From positions 1 through 64,000 of the forward strand of contig CAJQRD010000025.1 in assembly GCA_905480605.1 (NCBI GenBank): a stretch of DNA of 64,000 nucleotides. Direction: 5' to 3'. Positions 54,116-59,017 of this stretch are shown here, piece by piece; position 1 is the stretch's first letter, and each line of letters opens with the position of its first letter. Position numbers and translations under genes: made by a program. The notes beneath the pieces are model-generated. The model ran no database searches and was not told the DNA's origin. It was given only the letters and a program-made list of their open reading frames with translations. The stretch is from an uncultured Saprospiraceae bacterium (GTDB taxonomy: Bacteria > Bacteroidota > Bacteroidia > Chitinophagales > Saprospiraceae).

Positions 54116-55315
54116 ATGTCACAAAGCTATTTGTCTCAAAAGTTGCTCAATATGAGCGAGTCTGCAACATTATTGATGGCACAGAAAGCTAGAGAATTAG
54201 GAAACACTGGAGTAGATGTCATTTCATTAAGTCTTGGGGAACCAGATTTTGATACTCCTGACTATATCAAAGAAGCTGCAAAAAAGGCCCTTGATGATGG
54301 ATTTACCAAGTATACACCTGTCCCTGGATTAATGGAATTAAGACAAGCTATATGTGCCAAACTAAAACGTGATAACAATCTTAACTACACTCCTAAAGAG
54401 ATTGTCGTTTCCAATGGAGCTAAACAATGTATAGCAAACACATGTTTGGCATTATTAGATGAAGGAGACGAAGTAATCATTTTTACACCATATTGGGTCT
54501 CTTATTTTCATATTGTAAAATTTGCAGGAGGTAAGCCAATTTCATTATATGCTGGGCTTGATCAAGAGTACAAAGTGAGCCCCGAACAATTGGAAGAAGC
54601 ACTAACAGACAAAACAAAGTTAATCATCTTCTCCTCTCCAAGTAATCCAACTGGAAGTGTATATTCAAAATCGGAAATTGAAGCCTTAGCTAAAGTAATT
54701 AGCAAGCGTTCTGGACTATTTGTAATAGCAGATGAGATTTATGAATACATCACTTTTGAAGATAAAAATACAAGTATCGCTCAGTTTGAAGGCATGAAAG
54801 ACAAAACCATTACTATCAATGGGATGTCAAAAGGTTTTGCCATGACAGGATGGAGATTGGGATACATGGCGGCTCCACAATGGATTGCCAGTGCATGCAC
54901 AAAAGTACAAGGTCAGTTTACTTCTGGTGCCAATGCTTTTGGGCAAAAGGCTGCAGTTACAGCTTTGAAAGCCCCACCCTCTGATCAAGACTATATGAAA
55001 GAAAAGTATAAGGAACGTAAAAAGTTACTTAAGAAGTTGCTAGATGAGATTGATGGAATAAAAACAAATAACCCTGAAGGTGCTTTTTATTTCTTTCCAA
55101 ATATCGCTGCATTCTTTGGACGAACTAATGGAAAGAGAATAATCCATAATGCTGATGAATTTGTAGATATTCTTTTAGATGAAGCTCATGTTGCTGCTGT
55201 ATCGGGAACTTCATTTGGAGACCCTAACTCTTTCAGAATATCTTACGCAACTTCTAATGAGCGATTGATTGAGGCTATGGCTCGGATAAAGAAGGTATTG
55301 GGGGAATATAAGTAA
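54116..55315 (+). CDS. Pyridoxal-phosphate-dependent class I aminotransferase (aspartate aminotransferase-like)
   Basis: A 399-residue fold-type I PLP enzyme. 'ISLSLGEPDFDTPDYIKEAA' opens the family region. 'IVVSNGAKQCIANTCLALLD' and 'IIFSSPSNPTGSVYSKSEIE' (substrate Asn) precede 'IADEIYEYITFE' (PLP Asp/Tyr). The PLP Lys is in 'INGMSKGFAMTGWRLGYMAA' near residue 240, and the carboxylate-binding Arg in 'SFRISYATSNERLIEAM'. The subgroup resembles prokaryotic aspartate/aromatic transaminases, but exact specificity is not decided. The 3' end is 30 bp from the first 176-bp repeat unit. Confidence 0.93.
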   Translation: MSQSYLSQKLLNMSESATLLMAQKARELGNTGVDVISLSLGEPDFDTPDYIKEAAKKALDDGFTKYTPVPGLMELRQAICAKLKRDNNLNYTPKEIVVSNGAKQCIANTCLALLDEGDEVIIFTPYWVSYFHIVKFAGGKPISLYAGLDQEYKVSPEQLEEALTDKTKLIIFSSPSNPTGSVYSKSEIEALAKVISKRSGLFVIADEIYEYITFEDKNTSIAQFEGMKDKTITINGMSKGFAMTGWRLGYMAAPQWIASACTKVQGQFTSGANAFGQKAAVTALKAPPSDQDYMKEKYKERKKLLKKLLDEIDGIKTNNPEGAFYFFPNIAAFFGRTNGKRIIHNADEFVDILLDEAHVAAVSGTSFGDPNSFRISYATSNERLIEAMARIKKVLGEYK

Positions 55316-55345: not shown

Positions 55346-55521
55346 CACTCACCCCCGAATTTCGTAAACGAAATACACCCCCTCTCTATTCTATAGAGGG
55401 GGAAAGTCAGTTCTTACGATGTATTATATACAATAAATTAGGAGTAAAAAACTAGCCGTTACACAAGTCTGCTCTTTTCTTAAAGAGAAGGGAAAAATTT
55501 CGTAGAAATTAGGGGCGAGTG
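55346..55521. repeat. 176-bp hairpin repeat element, unit 1
   Basis: Left end CACTCACCCCCGAATTTCG; right end AATTAGGGGCGAGTG, an imperfect inverted copy of it. Inside are small hairpins, including ATTTCGTAAACGAAAT (55359-55374), a C5/G5 stem CCCCCTCTCTA...TAGAGGGGG, and CTTTTCTTAAAGAG. Repeated three times downstream with the same length. Confidence 0.9.
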
Positions 55522-55555
55522 AACTTTTGTTCTAGGGATGAGTGAAAACTACTTC

Positions 55556-55731
55556 CACTCACCCACGAATTTCGTAAACGAAATACACCCCCTCTCTATC
55601 CTATAGAGGGGGAAAGTAAGTTCTTACGTTGTATTATATACAATAAATTAGGAGTAAAAAACTAGCCTTTACACAAGTCTGCTCTTTTCTTAAAGAGAAG
55701 GGAAAAATTTCGTAGAAATTAGAGGTGAGTG
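55556..55731. repeat. 176-bp hairpin repeat element, unit 2
   Basis: Nearly identical to unit 1, starting exactly 210 bp after it; a 34-bp spacer separates them. The right terminus reads AATTAGAGGTGAGTG, the left CACTCACCCACGAATTTCG. Confidence 0.9.
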
Positions 55732-55765
55732 AACTTTTGTTCTAGGGATGAGTGAAGACTACTTC

Positions 55766-55941
55766 CACTCACCCCCGAATTTCGTAAACGAAACACACCC
55801 CCTCTCTATTCTATAGAAGGGGAAAGTCAGTTCTTACGATGTATTATATACAATAAATTAGGAGTAAAAAACTAGCCTTTACACAAGTCTGCTCTTTTCT
55901 TAAAGAGAAGGGAAAAATTTCGTAGAAATTAGGGGTGAGTG
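55766..55941. repeat. 176-bp hairpin repeat element, unit 3
   Basis: Again 210 bp after unit 2, with the same 34-bp spacer. The right terminus AATTAGGGGTGAGTG overlaps the 3' end of the DUF559 gene on the minus strand and supplies its TAA stop. Confidence 0.9.
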
Positions 55942-56303
55942 AATACTTTAGAAGTAATCTTCAAATAAAGAGCTATCCTTTGTTCTACAACAGATATGTT
56001 ATCCAAAACATCTTTATTTGAAAACCTCAGAATAAAATATCCCATTTCATTAAGTACTTTCTCCCTTGTAATATCATAATCCCTTTGTGCATGATGTATA
56101 CTTCCATCAATTTCTATTATTAGTTTATGTTCTAAACAAATAAAGTCAACAATAAAATAATGTGCCTCATTATTAATTACAGCATGTTGTATCACATATT
56201 GTCTGTTAAATTTTAGAGAAAATAACTTTCGTCTCCTAACATGCTGCCAAAATAAATCTTCTGCTTTTGTAGGATTTTTACGCATATCTCTAGCGAAATG
56301 CAA
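55929..56303 (-). CDS. DUF559 domain (Vsr-like, PD-(D/E)XK) endonuclease
   Basis: A 124-residue protein of the DUF559 family, related to very-short-patch repair (Vsr) nucleases. 'ARDMRKNPTKAEDLFWQHVR' and 'RRKLFSLKFNRQYVI' are the usual N-terminus. The catalytic region is 'YFIVDFICLEHKLIIEIDG' (the D...ExD core), followed by 'HHAQRDYDITREKVLNEMGY' and 'FILRFSN'. All expected acidic residues are present, so it should be an active nuclease. Its last residues and stop are inside unit 3 of the 176-bp repeat, and its 5' end lies about 85 bp from unit 4. The gene and repeats look like parts of one element (inference). Confidence 0.88.
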   Translation of the reverse strand: MHFARDMRKNPTKAEDLFWQHVRRRKLFSLKFNRQYVIQHAVINNEAHYFIVDFICLEHKLIIEIDGSIHHAQRDYDITREKVLNEMGYFILRFSNKDVLDNISVVEQRIALYLKITSKVFTHP

Positions 56304-56388
56304 TGCTTTTACATATTTCTTAATACTAATGGATTGATTAAACTAAAATTATTTAAAATCTGTTTGAAAAGCAACCTTATAAAGTATA

Positions 56389-56564
56389 CACTCACCCCCG
56401 AATTTCGTAAACGAAATACACCCCCTCTCTATCCTATAGAGGGGGAAAGTAAGTTCTTACGTTTTAATTATATATTATGAGTTGTAAGCTATACCTAGCC
56501 AATAGACACCTCCCCTCTTTTCTTAAAGAGAGGGGAAAAATTTCTTTGAAATTAGGGGTGAGTG
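56389..56564. repeat. 176-bp hairpin repeat element, unit 4 (diverged)
   Basis: Same length and same termini as units 1-3 (CACTCACCCCCGAATTTCG ... AATTAGGGGTGAGTG), but the middle differs and its second hairpin is a better stem (CCCCTCTTT ... AAAGAGAGGGG). It ends 8 bp before the 3' end of the 56573-59017 gene, so it sits on the far side of the DUF559 gene. Confidence 0.88.
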
Positions 56565-56572
56565 AATATTAC

Positions 56573-59017
56573 TTAATCTATCTTCTGAATTTTCTTGGTG
56601 ATGATCTCACCTTGGCTAAATACTTTTACAAAGTATACACCTTGAATCACTGATGTTAAATCAACCTCATACTTGTAAGACTGAGATATTGTAGAAGAAC
56701 TAATTTTCTGTCCCAATGCATCGTAAATCTCAACACGATCTATGTTAAGATTATCAGCATCAATTGTAAATATAGAACTTGTAGGGTTAGGATAAACATC
56801 TACTTTTGAAGACAAATCTTCTTTGATATCATCATTACCCGAATTGATAGTAATTACCTTAGATTGTTTAGGATGCTTCTTAAATTGTCCTTTTTCATTG
56901 ACAGAGATAATGTCTGTCATAGCAATCAATTCTTGTGTAAAAGAATTAATTGAGAATCTTTTTTTCAAACCTTGAACCTCTTCCTCAATAATAAACTCAA
57001 GAGTTCCTATCAAACCAATACCATCTGTTGAAGCATTTGAAATTCTTGAAACTGCAATATCAATTTGTCCATCTTGAGGTACTTCATAGAACTCGTACAA
57101 TGGAGACTCATAAGACATCCAGTTATTGTCTGCTATGTTGAAAATGACACTTGATGAGTCAATTACATCAGGATTAATATTGAAGGTAAATGATGTACCG
57201 TAGAAATCCAATGCTGGGTTTGCTGCGTTACCTACGTAAATATCGATAAACATCCATTCACCAGAATCCACATCTGTTGATTGAGGAACAAACGATATAG
57301 GCAAGCTAGACAATTGACCTACATTATTAGGCACAAAATTATGGATATTACCATAGTGCTCTTCCAATTCATCAAAATCACCAAAATCAATATAACCATC
57401 ACCGTCACCATCTCCGCATTTCAAATCAATATTAGAACTCATTTGACCATGTCCCCAATCAGATGATTCTTGACCTGTCCAAAATAAGGTAAAGTCATTG
57501 GTTCTATCAAAACCTCCTTCACCTATGTTAAGACCTAAATCTAATGCATCTTTTGCATTTACTACACCATCATCATTGTAATCGCCTTCAAAAACACAAG
57601 AGTTCAAACAAAGACAATCAGTAAAATTAGAATCCAAGATATTGACATCAACCTTTACTATTTCACAATCACCAGAAATAGTACAATATTCAATATCAAA
57701 TTCATCAACTCCATTGAAGTCAGCATCTGGAATATAAATTATTGTATTCTCTCCAGAAATGACATCACATTCCAAAACTTCAGATTGATTGGCTCCTAAA
57801 ACTATTACTGATCCAAAAGTTGGAGCAACAGCCAAGGAGAAAGTATAATCTGATGTTGGTGTATCGTGGTTTATCTTTAAATCATGATTCTTTAAAATTG
57901 TAAAATCATAATCATACTCTTGAGATGGTGCAAAATCATCTACATGAATGGTAATGTTTCCTGTATGAAACTGAAAACCAGCAAATATCTTGTAGAAATA
58001 AGTTAAATCACCTGTAAAGTCAGCAGTTGGTTGGAATGAAAAGCTTCCATTTCCATTATAAGACAACTCTGGTGAATAGTCAACTATATTAAAGTCATCT
58101 CTGTAGTCATTGCTGAACACATTGAAGTCAATACTACCATTTGTTGTTACAAAAATCTGATCATCTTGAACAAATGAATTGTTTGCAGCCTTACTAATTA
58201 CATTGATATTATATGTGATTTCACCTCCGTTGGGCGCACTGAAGATTAGACTTTCAATCCCTTCAAAACTTGAATTCGGAGAATATACAGCAACATGACC
58301 ATTATATTCAAGGCTTCCATTTTGTGGAATAGTATTAGCCGTAAAATCGAGACTGTTGAGGTGTAAATTGATAGAAGATAAATTATCAACAAATAAATCA
58401 CGAGTTTCAATAAGATCGTCAGATTCACGTTGAACAAATAATTTACTGCCTTCTATATTTCCTGTAGAATCAGATACAAAATACCTAATGTAAGCCAAAT
58501 CGGCGTTTGTGTCAATGGAAAATTCAATTTTATTGTTTACAATTGATGCGATCCCTCCTTCAATCAGACCCAATCTATCAATTGTCAAACCACCATCAGA
58601 AGAATTATCATTGCTTAAAACATCAATTTCAACAGCAGAGCCAACACTAGCAAGAGCATAATCCTCTATTAAATCAATTTTAGAACTTTTGATTCTGTAG
58701 TGAAGTGTTGTGTAGTTGGGTATAACCATACCAGGAAAACCTCCCGGTACAAAATACTCTATAGTAATTGATTCATCTCCTATAAAACCATCAACAGGAG
58801 TAAATAAAAACTCAGTCTGTCCAGTTCCTGGAATAGGATCAAAACTAAGTGCATCAAAAGCAGTAGGTTCAACCACAACATTTGGACCTGAAGCTGTATT
58901 TAAAACCACATATACAGGCTCTCCTACTTTTGCATTGATATAGATGTCTTTAGGATTAAGTTGAGCACTCAAGCCTATAGAGATTAATAGTAATAAGAAA
59001 GCTATAAAGTTCTTCAC
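56573..59017 (-). CDS. Large secreted multidomain protein, T9SS type A
   Basis: An 814-residue secreted protein: signal peptide (about 1-18, 'LLLLISIGLSAQL'), several tandem Ig/cadherin-like beta-sandwich modules with 'DVLSNDNSSDGG'-type and 'VFSNDYRDDFNIVDYS'-type sequences. A dockerin/EF-hand-like Ca region ('GDYNDDGVVNAKDALDLGLN', 'CGDGDGDGYIDFGDFDELEE') and a cohesin-like segment come next. The C-terminal T9SS type A sorting domain is 'VDVYPNPTSSIFTIDADNL'. No catalytic domain is seen, so it is probably structural or adhesive. It is convergent with the aminotransferase gene; the 3' end lies next to repeat unit 4. Confidence 0.85.
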   Translation of the reverse strand: MKNFIAFLLLLISIGLSAQLNPKDIYINAKVGEPVYVVLNTASGPNVVVEPTAFDALSFDPIPGTGQTEFLFTPVDGFIGDESITIEYFVPGGFPGMVIPNYTTLHYRIKSSKIDLIEDYALASVGSAVEIDVLSNDNSSDGGLTIDRLGLIEGGIASIVNNKIEFSIDTNADLAYIRYFVSDSTGNIEGSKLFVQRESDDLIETRDLFVDNLSSINLHLNSLDFTANTIPQNGSLEYNGHVAVYSPNSSFEGIESLIFSAPNGGEITYNINVISKAANNSFVQDDQIFVTTNGSIDFNVFSNDYRDDFNIVDYSPELSYNGNGSFSFQPTADFTGDLTYFYKIFAGFQFHTGNITIHVDDFAPSQEYDYDFTILKNHDLKINHDTPTSDYTFSLAVAPTFGSVIVLGANQSEVLECDVISGENTIIYIPDADFNGVDEFDIEYCTISGDCEIVKVDVNILDSNFTDCLCLNSCVFEGDYNDDGVVNAKDALDLGLNIGEGGFDRTNDFTLFWTGQESSDWGHGQMSSNIDLKCGDGDGDGYIDFGDFDELEEHYGNIHNFVPNNVGQLSSLPISFVPQSTDVDSGEWMFIDIYVGNAANPALDFYGTSFTFNINPDVIDSSSVIFNIADNNWMSYESPLYEFYEVPQDGQIDIAVSRISNASTDGIGLIGTLEFIIEEEVQGLKKRFSINSFTQELIAMTDIISVNEKGQFKKHPKQSKVITINSGNDDIKEDLSSKVDVYPNPTSSIFTIDADNLNIDRVEIYDALGQKISSSTISQSYKYEVDLTSVIQGVYFVKVFSQGEIITKKIQKID

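Follow-up and report, generated by a model that had tools for sequence, protein, structure and literature searches.

The window analysed here, a stretch of 64,000 nucleotides from an uncultured Saprospiraceae bacterium (assembly GCA_905480605.1, contig CAJQRD010000025.1, positions 1 to 64,000), contains a block in which four copies of a 176-bp hairpin element are grouped around a gene for a DUF559 protein, a putative PD-(D/E)XK nuclease of the Vsr-like type. The four copies are ungapped and have a common orientation. Copies 1 to 3 form a tandem with a period of 210 bp (176 bp plus a 34-bp spacer) and are identical to one another at 169-172 of 176 positions; copy 4, on the other side of the nuclease gene, matches copies 1 to 3 at 139-142 of 176. 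The element has terminal inverted repeats (CACTCACCCC / GGGGTGAGTG), with single substitutions at the right end of copy 1 and at both ends of copy 2, and several hairpins inside.

The DUF559 open reading frame (ORF) between copies 3 and 4 is complete (PF04480, E=1.5e-30), and its stop codon falls within the right end of copy 3. It is the only ORF of at least 80 aa in the block, and no Y1 (HUH) transposase gene is adjacent. The block lies between two convergent genes, one for an aminotransferase (54116-55315, plus strand) and one for a protein with a type IX secretion system (T9SS) tail (56573-59017, minus strand). An initial annotation of this DNA had described the four copies with their inverted termini and internal hairpins, the tandem of three with the fourth beyond a Vsr-like nuclease gene, and the position at convergent 3' gene ends, and the coordinates and identities given here bear it out in each of these respects.

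Structure of the modules and the triplex rule

Each 176-bp copy consists of two modules that face outward. A module is a C-first hairpin (CCCCTCTC..GAGAGGGG) followed by a foot, GGGGTGAGTG, that can be read as a third strand lying antiparallel on the purine arm of the same hairpin (Table 1). The rule for this reading allows G*G:C, A*A:T and T*A:T triads, with the foot antiparallel to the purine arm. The left module of copy 4 gives 10 of 10 antiparallel purine-motif triads. Its right module has the order hairpin (TCCCCTCTTTTCTTAAAGAGAGGGGA), mini-hairpin (AATTTCTTTGAAATT) and foot (GGGGTGAGTG), and the purine arm GGGGAGAGA (3' to 5') set against the foot GGGGTGAGT gives G*G, G*G, G*G, G*G, T*A, G*G, A*A, G*G and T*A, with zero mismatch. 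By this rule the window modules read as intrastrand triplexes of the BoxC/PIT/TM kind, a fold that is itself predicted.

BoxC/PIT/TM repeats have been known since the 1990s. Like the window elements, they have a C-first hairpin with a third strand under the antiparallel purine motif and occur in many copies, one of them beside the E. coli gene ycjD (PMC4666352; this and the other papers given by PMC accession are cited from part of their text). The window copies are also intergenic, except that copy 3 runs into the end of the DUF559 ORF, and multi-copy, with 13 matches in the genome. However, the window modules have 17-20 nt between arm and foot, including a mini-hairpin, compared with loops of 1-6 nt allowed in the published search for BoxC/PIT/TM (PMC4666352), and they are joined as outward-facing pairs. 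They also have a candidate enzyme, whereas no partner enzyme is named in the consulted part of PMC4666352. Because the mini-hairpin in the loop and the pairing of modules make them a variant, we do not file the window elements as BoxC, although they work like BoxC. Among relatives, exactly 3 nt separate the stem from the foot in 21 of 45 listed arm-foot pairs, and in some a mini-hairpin is found there.

The element is not confined to the block. The window's assembly (4.5 Mb, 125 contigs) has only one DUF559 match, and nine of its 13 DNA matches to the element, all partial, lie outside the block on contigs C59, C56, C42, C64 and C8. Because there are nine further matches in the same genome, the repeat is not a chance likeness. 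The outside matches that we inspected (C59/C56, C42, C64/C8) share this design and occur both in arrays and singly. Those at the ends of contigs C64 and C8 (L011/L012) are tandem half-module arrays with a period of ~103 bp and the left module only, perhaps one array split by the assembly. A DNA search with the 176-bp element found no match at E<=0.001 in 99 other genomes (no more than eight candidates were scored in each), so what those genomes share is the design only. Rfam gave zero matches in the window at gathering thresholds. The same genome has two Y1 matches, one with a listed place on contig C47.

Table 1. Positions of the repeat copies, selected module parts and the nuclease gene in the window
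Feature	Position	Strand	Remarks
Copy 1, 176-bp element	55346..55521	+	Left module intact (arm/foot 10/10 triads); right module decayed (score 4)
Foot (third strand), left module of copy 1: GGGGTGAGTG	55346..55355	-	
Mini-hairpin between purine arm and foot (GAATTTCGTAAACGAAATAC)	55357..55376	-	3-nt loop here in many relatives
C-first main hairpin, left module of copy 1	55378..55402	-	Purine arm on minus strand; counterparts at 55588-55612, 55798-55822 and 56421-56445
Spacer between copies 1 and 2, 34 bp	55522..55555	+	Contains partial foot GGGATGAGTG
Copy 2, 176-bp element	55556..55731	+	169/176 identical to copy 1; left module 8 triads; right module decayed (score 5)
Spacer between copies 2 and 3, 34 bp	55732..55765	+	
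Copy 3, 176-bp element	55766..55941	+	172/176 identical to copy 1; left module 10 triads; right module 6.5; right end overlaps 3' end of nuclease gene
DUF559 (PF04480) PD-(D/E)XK nuclease gene, intact	55929..56303	-	Start codon uncertain: TTG at 56303; 137 codons open
Copy 4, best-preserved element	56389..56564	+	Both modules fit the triplex rule: left 10 triads, right 9
C-first hairpin, right module of copy 4 (TCCCCTCTTTTCTTAAAGAGAGGGGA)	56511..56536	+	
Foot, right module of copy 4 (GGGGTGAGTG)	56555..56564	+	

Modules beside DUF559 genes in other genomes

We compared the flanks of DUF559 genes in three sets: 100 related genomes, named genomes from many phyla, and a plasmid collection. PF04480 is present in 45 of the 100 related genomes (the window's own counted), and 30 loci of the 69 listed matches were used, including the window's own (L014); 29 were usable for the hairpin and strict tests and 28 for flank similarity. 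The many-phyla set is the best 80 of at least 586 matches (79 usable, 78 for flank similarity), and its query was an alignment (A2) that included some members already known to have repeats. The plasmid set is 14 of 44 records, chosen for taxonomic variety before the flanks were viewed, and its query (L075) was likewise known to have repeats. Control ORFs came from the many-phyla loci only and were called by a simple ORF caller. Three other families, S23, GxxExxY and Y1 transposases, were represented by 30 loci each from longer match lists, with one match width set per family (315, 348 and 350 bp), so that the match ends are some bases off. The hairpin test was for a C-first hairpin with a stem of at least 8 and CCC in the 5' arm within 250 bp of the gene. 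The strict module test was for a hairpin with a stem of at least 5 plus a foot fitting the triplex rule.

C-first hairpins flanked DUF559 on both sides at 39 of 79 many-phyla loci, 12 of 29 loci in relatives (window locus included) and 11 of 14 plasmid loci, and on one side only at 18/79, 10/29 and 3/14. Controls with such hairpins on both sides were 14 of 882 other ORFs, six of 297 ORFs with intergenic DNA on both sides, and 0/28 S23, 0/29 GxxExxY and 4/27 Y1 genes. Strict modules stood on both sides of DUF559 in 26/79, 8/29 and 4/14 cases (many-phyla, relatives, plasmids), against 3/882 ORFs and 1/297 intergenic controls (26/79 vs 1/297, Fisher p=1.3e-18). At least one side had a strict module in 45/79, 20/29 and 11/14, against 30/882 ORFs, 11/297 intergenic controls and none of the 28 S23, 29 GxxExxY and 27 Y1 genes. 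The mobile pair of the initial annotation, which was to fail if the repeats were not enriched near DUF559 genes or if most of these genes lacked them, is thus not refuted by either test. Based on these counts, DUF559 is almost certainly associated with BoxC-like triplex modules.

Two other accounts of the counts were rejected. Terminators or base composition do not fit, since G-first hairpins stood on both sides of DUF559 in 1/79 cases (one side, 12/79; 0/14 and 5/14 in plasmids) and earlier work found neither promoter nor terminator activity for PIT/BoxC, as reported in PMC4666352. A general trait of small isolated genes does not fit the S23 and GxxExxY counts (0/28 and 0/29). Similarity between the two flanks of a gene is another matter. 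A bare flank-similarity score of at least 20 was reached by 46 of 78 DUF559 genes and 37 of 868 ordinary ORFs in the many-phyla set, and in the relatives by 15/28 DUF559, 13/28 S23, 12/29 GxxExxY and 10/27 Y1 genes. Because these three families reach this score about as often as DUF559 does in the relatives, flank similarity is not DUF559-specific; only the repeat class is.

Some loci have further repeats. On cyanobacterial plasmids (L243-L245), the DUF559 genes have yet another style of module around them, with AAATCCCC..GGGGACTT and CCCCCnnnGGGGG hairpins mixed in arrays. At L021 a CRISPR-like array (repeat CTTTAAATCATTGTCCAAATAAGGTTGGATTGAAAC) is downstream of the DUF559 gene and close to it.

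The arms and feet of the modules vary together. A G-rich foot accompanies 102 of 163 hairpins near DUF559, 51 pointing to the gene and 51 away from it, where the foot is by construction the hairpin's G-richer side. Two designs are frequent, CCCCTCTCC..GGAGAGGGG with GGGGTGAGG and CCCCTCCTT..AAGGAGGGG with GGGGTGGT. When 60 loci were reduced to 57 non-redundant ones, arms scored 473.5 with their own feet and 350.7 +/- 8.9 with swapped feet (z=13.8, 0/10000). The result was similar with one row per distinct arm (z=12.9-13.8) and with one row per locus and no G filter on the foot (z=13.1), and z was 6.4 within class A (the AGAG class) alone. Under alternative rules, z was 10.1 for a strict mirror, 12.7 for T*A only and 0.06 for a nonsense rule. 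Mirror symmetry is not usually read by proteins; an intrastrand triplex would be a simple explanation of the symmetry between arm and foot.

The class of a module tends to agree with the place of its DUF559 protein in the tree. The tree holds 45 proteins, two near-identical pairs among them; 15 of the 60 loci were left out because their arm fitted no class. On it the three module classes require 7 changes, against a shuffled mean of 14.8 (as low in 0/200). Classes A and B are clustered, class A with 4 changes vs 13.3 when shuffled and class B with 3 vs 8.4 (0/500 each). All nine rows of the GGGGTGGT class fall within one 16-row clade of Nomura-/Komeilibacteria, Bacteroidota and Nitrospinota/Nitrospirota, and most Bacteroidota of the other class are elsewhere. 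Related genomes with the enzyme also have more of the hairpins. The pattern CCCCTYYN{1,14}RRAGGGG occurs on average 11.9 times (median 4) in 35 genomes with a strong DUF559 match and 2.5 times (median 1) in 55 without one (p=6e-5; reversed-pattern control p=0.17; genome size and relatedness uncorrected), where strong means E<1e-20, a cut chosen after the table was viewed. The 10 genomes with weak matches have a mean of 7.8, and 4.8 for the control pattern.

The gene ycjD of E. coli K-12 (NC_000913.3:1351407-1351760) is a DUF559 gene (PF04480, E=1.4e-49). A BoxC copy lies 165 bp from its stop codon, and a degenerate second copy overlaps its 3' end; in strain S1-SRB-02-B the overlapping copy is, by eye, complete. 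The block of ycjD plus BoxC is present, at a threshold of at least 80%, in 3362 of 5426 E. coli genomes. We take envM to be the old name of fabI, the neighbor of ycjD. The envM sequence paper is cited for BoxC in PMC4666352. That survey counts 23 BoxC/TM copies in K-12, so nearly all are away from ycjD. It also reports that the E. coli motif forms a triplex in vitro, by circular dichroism and nuclear magnetic resonance, that BoxC loci are unstable in E. coli and, in the part consulted, that mobility activities were never found near the E. coli copies (PMC4666352). Its main text contains no words beginning 'nuclease', 'ycjD' or 'duf'. A literature search, with most subscription journals and all bioRxiv preprints outside its scope, found no paper joining DUF559 or Vsr nucleases to palindromic or triplex repeats.

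Possible mobility and the candidate role of the nuclease

The conserved residues of DUF559 suggest an active enzyme. D53, E64 and D66 do not vary in either alignment, and H70 is invariant in one and nearly so in the other. The AlphaFold model of the window's protein has a pLDDT of 88.3 and a pTM of 0.81. Its nearest solved relatives are 3hrl from N. gonorrhoeae (profile match, E=3.2e-32), the homing endonuclease I-Bth0305I and PvuRts1I/AbaSI, with Vsr more weakly related. Foldseek matched 3hrl at E=1.1e-6, 3r3p at E=2.5e-3 and 1vsr at E=0.063, only the first of these below 0.001. A defence library gave a weak match only (mREase_II, E=0.0015).

DUF559 genes and their hairpins occupy differing places in related genomes. 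One loop of leucyl-tRNA synthetase (LeuRS) holds an in-frame DUF559, bracketed by C-first hairpins, in two genomes that belong to different families; in the second (L235), the listed match has one internal TGA, though the frame is open for 1144 codons. In L233, a congener of the first (L231), LeuRS is uninterrupted (926 codons), with 46 bp at the place of the 454 bp in L231. Further long open frames that contain DUF559, flanked on at least one side by C-first hairpins, are found at L023, L024, L027, L028, L032 and L033. Two Deinococcus plasmids have homologous cassettes (79% identical) at two different places in the hpa operon. The L249 cassette is between hpaE and an oxidoreductase gene, a junction that is uninterrupted in L256. 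The L256 cassette, which by eye has 15-bp outer inverted repeats, separates the oxidoreductase gene from hpaB; L249 lacks a cassette at this place and has a VOC gene. Discrete cassettes are thus found at sites that are uninterrupted in relatives (LeuRS, L231 vs L233; Deinococcus, L249 vs L256).

The LeuRS loop has other occupants. In genome G083 (L232:2385-2979), an in-frame insertion with a PBECR3 nuclease-like domain (Pfam E=1.6e-18) is found there, and the uninterrupted LeuRS of genome G063 (L233:2366-2400) has an in-frame AT-rich palindrome, CGTCAATTTTCAAATC..GATTTGAAAATTGACG. The loop is perhaps a hot spot for nuclease insertions.

We postulate that two outward-facing modules make up a 176-bp non-autonomous element and that modules around a DUF559 gene would make up an autonomous cassette. 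When a strand becomes single during replication or transcription, a module could fold. DUF559, which resembles Vsr and homing endonucleases, might then recognize the folded module and nick at or near the foot. The released strand could be repaired or copied, so that a single module, a pair of modules or the full cassette would arrive at another site, usually intergenic but sometimes in frame within a gene.

Recognition, nicking and mobilization by DUF559 are inferred here with differing confidence. We think it quite likely that DUF559 acts on the modules. It is probable, if somewhat less so, that BoxC-like triplex repeats have their cognate nuclease in DUF559 and are spread by it in the way that RAYTs spread REPs, and we would say nearly the same of its mobilizing the modules by a REP/RAYT-like route. 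More tentatively, we speculate that DUF559 might be the recombinase-like nuclease of a phylum-spanning mobile family whose ends are recognized as intrastrand triplexes, with BoxC/PIT/TM as its non-autonomous copies.

The mobile pair proposed in the initial annotation fares well in part. The association of DUF559 with the repeats across phyla favors it, its comparison with REP/RAYT systems is apt, and cassettes of DUF559 with hairpins occupy differing places in relatives, at LeuRS and hpa. The repeat class itself is not undescribed, since the modules obey the BoxC/PIT/TM rule; it is the partner enzyme of the class, and not the class, that appears to be new. A check for element-less alleles had also been proposed, and in 10 congeners no C-first hairpins are found in the first 700 nt after the orthologous aminotransferase gene (one contig ends at 441 nt). 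The T9SS neighbor is absent there in 10/10, and no clean empty allele was found.

Several observations weigh against the nuclease as the agent that spreads the repeats. We know of no cutting by DUF559 on these repeats. In the window's genome, nine of the 13 element matches are not beside DUF559, and the right modules of copies 1 to 3 are decayed and fit the rule poorly (scores 4, 5 and 6.5, against 10, 8 and 10 on the left). No C-first hairpin with a stem of 8 is found on either side of 22 of 79 DUF559 genes in the many-phyla set (7/29 in relatives, 0/14 in plasmids); by eye, 12 of the 22 have shorter C-first hairpins on both sides (e.g., CCCCTAAAGGGG) and about eight have nothing visible. The strict module test is failed by 34 of the 79. 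Class C is weakly clustered on the tree (5 changes vs a shuffled mean of 6.7, as low in 21/500), and hairpin counts are low in many DUF559 genomes (G005 3, G007 1, G008 0, G010 0, G013 1). The LeuRS and Deinococcus ends that were inspected by eye show no target-site duplication. In E. coli, three inspected ycjD-less strains have an efflux operon at the site. This is variation and not a clean empty site, and we rejected the ycjD site as an empty allele; an efflux operon there has been reported and read as operon loss (PMC12817139). As far as the consulted text of PMC4666352 goes, the genes flanking the 23 K-12 copies have no common function and there are no mobile elements, and a stable triplex is not supported by in vivo footprinting.

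Homing is the strongest of the other explanations, though unlikely. DUF559 would cut element-free alleles, the cassette would enter by gene conversion, and the modules would mark or protect the occupied site. The relation to 3r3p by profile and fold is consistent with this, as is the fact that a single LeuRS loop has been occupied more than once, with DUF559 cassettes in two families and the PBECR3 insertion in another genome. However, the window's genome has gene-less modules elsewhere, genomes with DUF559 have more of the hairpin pattern, and the Deinococcus cassette is at two different places, which is not expected under classical homing.

We consider it slightly less likely still that DUF559 is a caretaker. 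In this case, the repeats spread by other means, a domesticated DUF559 resolves their structures or limits damage, and adjacency aids regulation or retention. Caulobacter cells that lack a cytosine methyltransferase show an SOS response for which the DUF559 protein VsrA, a predicted mismatch-repair enzyme, is responsible (PMC12907096). This would suit a caretaker, as would the instability of BoxC loci in E. coli (PMC4666352). A caretaker needs neither repeats on both sides of its gene nor cassettes in LeuRS genes and at differing operon places.

It is very improbable that DUF559 is a passenger that inserts preferentially into existing C-rich palindromes, either independent repeats or terminators. 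The window modules do lie at convergent gene ends, and 30 of 882 ordinary ORFs have a module nearby. However, PIT/BoxC has no reported promoter or terminator activity (PMC4666352), module class tends to track the DUF559 tree, the pattern is rarer where DUF559 is absent, and no modules were found at 28 S23 and 29 GxxExxY loci in the same 100 genomes. Chance or composition, with C-rich hairpins arising beside a small isolated gene, is already refuted at present sample sizes, since, although G-first hairpins on one side are not rare (including in the GC-richer plasmid set), the two-sided G-first counts, the C-first hairpins at six of 297 intergenic controls and the permutation of own and swapped feet all speak against it.

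Relation to known systems and significance

In REP/REPIN-RAYT (TnpA-REP) systems, a small gene is flanked by short tagged palindromes, and further copies are found elsewhere. The window block is similar in having a small gene among short palindromes with a tag and extra copies elsewhere in the genome. However, its enzyme is a PD-(D/E)XK nuclease and not a Y1/HUH transposase, and its tag is a triplex third strand, GGGGTGAGTG, in contrast to the GTAG/CGTC tags of REP elements, which are named in the title of PMC3733652. DUF559 resembles Vsr and the EDxHD homing endonucleases (I-Bth0305I) in its predicted fold and its conserved acidic and His residues. Unlike these, it was seen in no intron or intein context, and triplex modules bracket its gene. 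The elements are also similar to miniature inverted-repeat transposable elements (MITEs), as they are short and apparently non-autonomous, have inverted termini and presumably derive from a gene-bearing form. In contrast to MITEs, the block has no DDE transposase, and no target-site duplication was seen.

Other gene families have repeat classes of their own. S23 genes (PF05635, four-helix bundle; L135-L164) are flanked by repeats that are often short, heptad-like and inverted across the two sides (e.g., GGTTAGAGGTTAGAG / CTCTAACCTCTAACC), and GxxExxY PD-(D/E)XK genes (PF13366; L165-L194) by yet other repeats (CGCAGATTT.., CACAAAGACACAAAG.., CTGAATTAGGATT..). These may be parallel enzyme-repeat systems.

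BoxC/PIT/TM repeats are long known and tied to genome instability, without a known origin, and their pairing with DUF559 offers a candidate enzyme. Since the enzyme is present in E. coli K-12 and has a solved relative, 3hrl, the question is directly testable at the bench. DUF559, annotated as a domain of unknown function, gains a concrete hypothesis. If that hypothesis is true, transposition or copying in this system would depend on a PD-(D/E)XK nuclease together with a triplex-coded terminus, and, to our knowledge, no earlier mobile element has termini defined by a DNA triplex.

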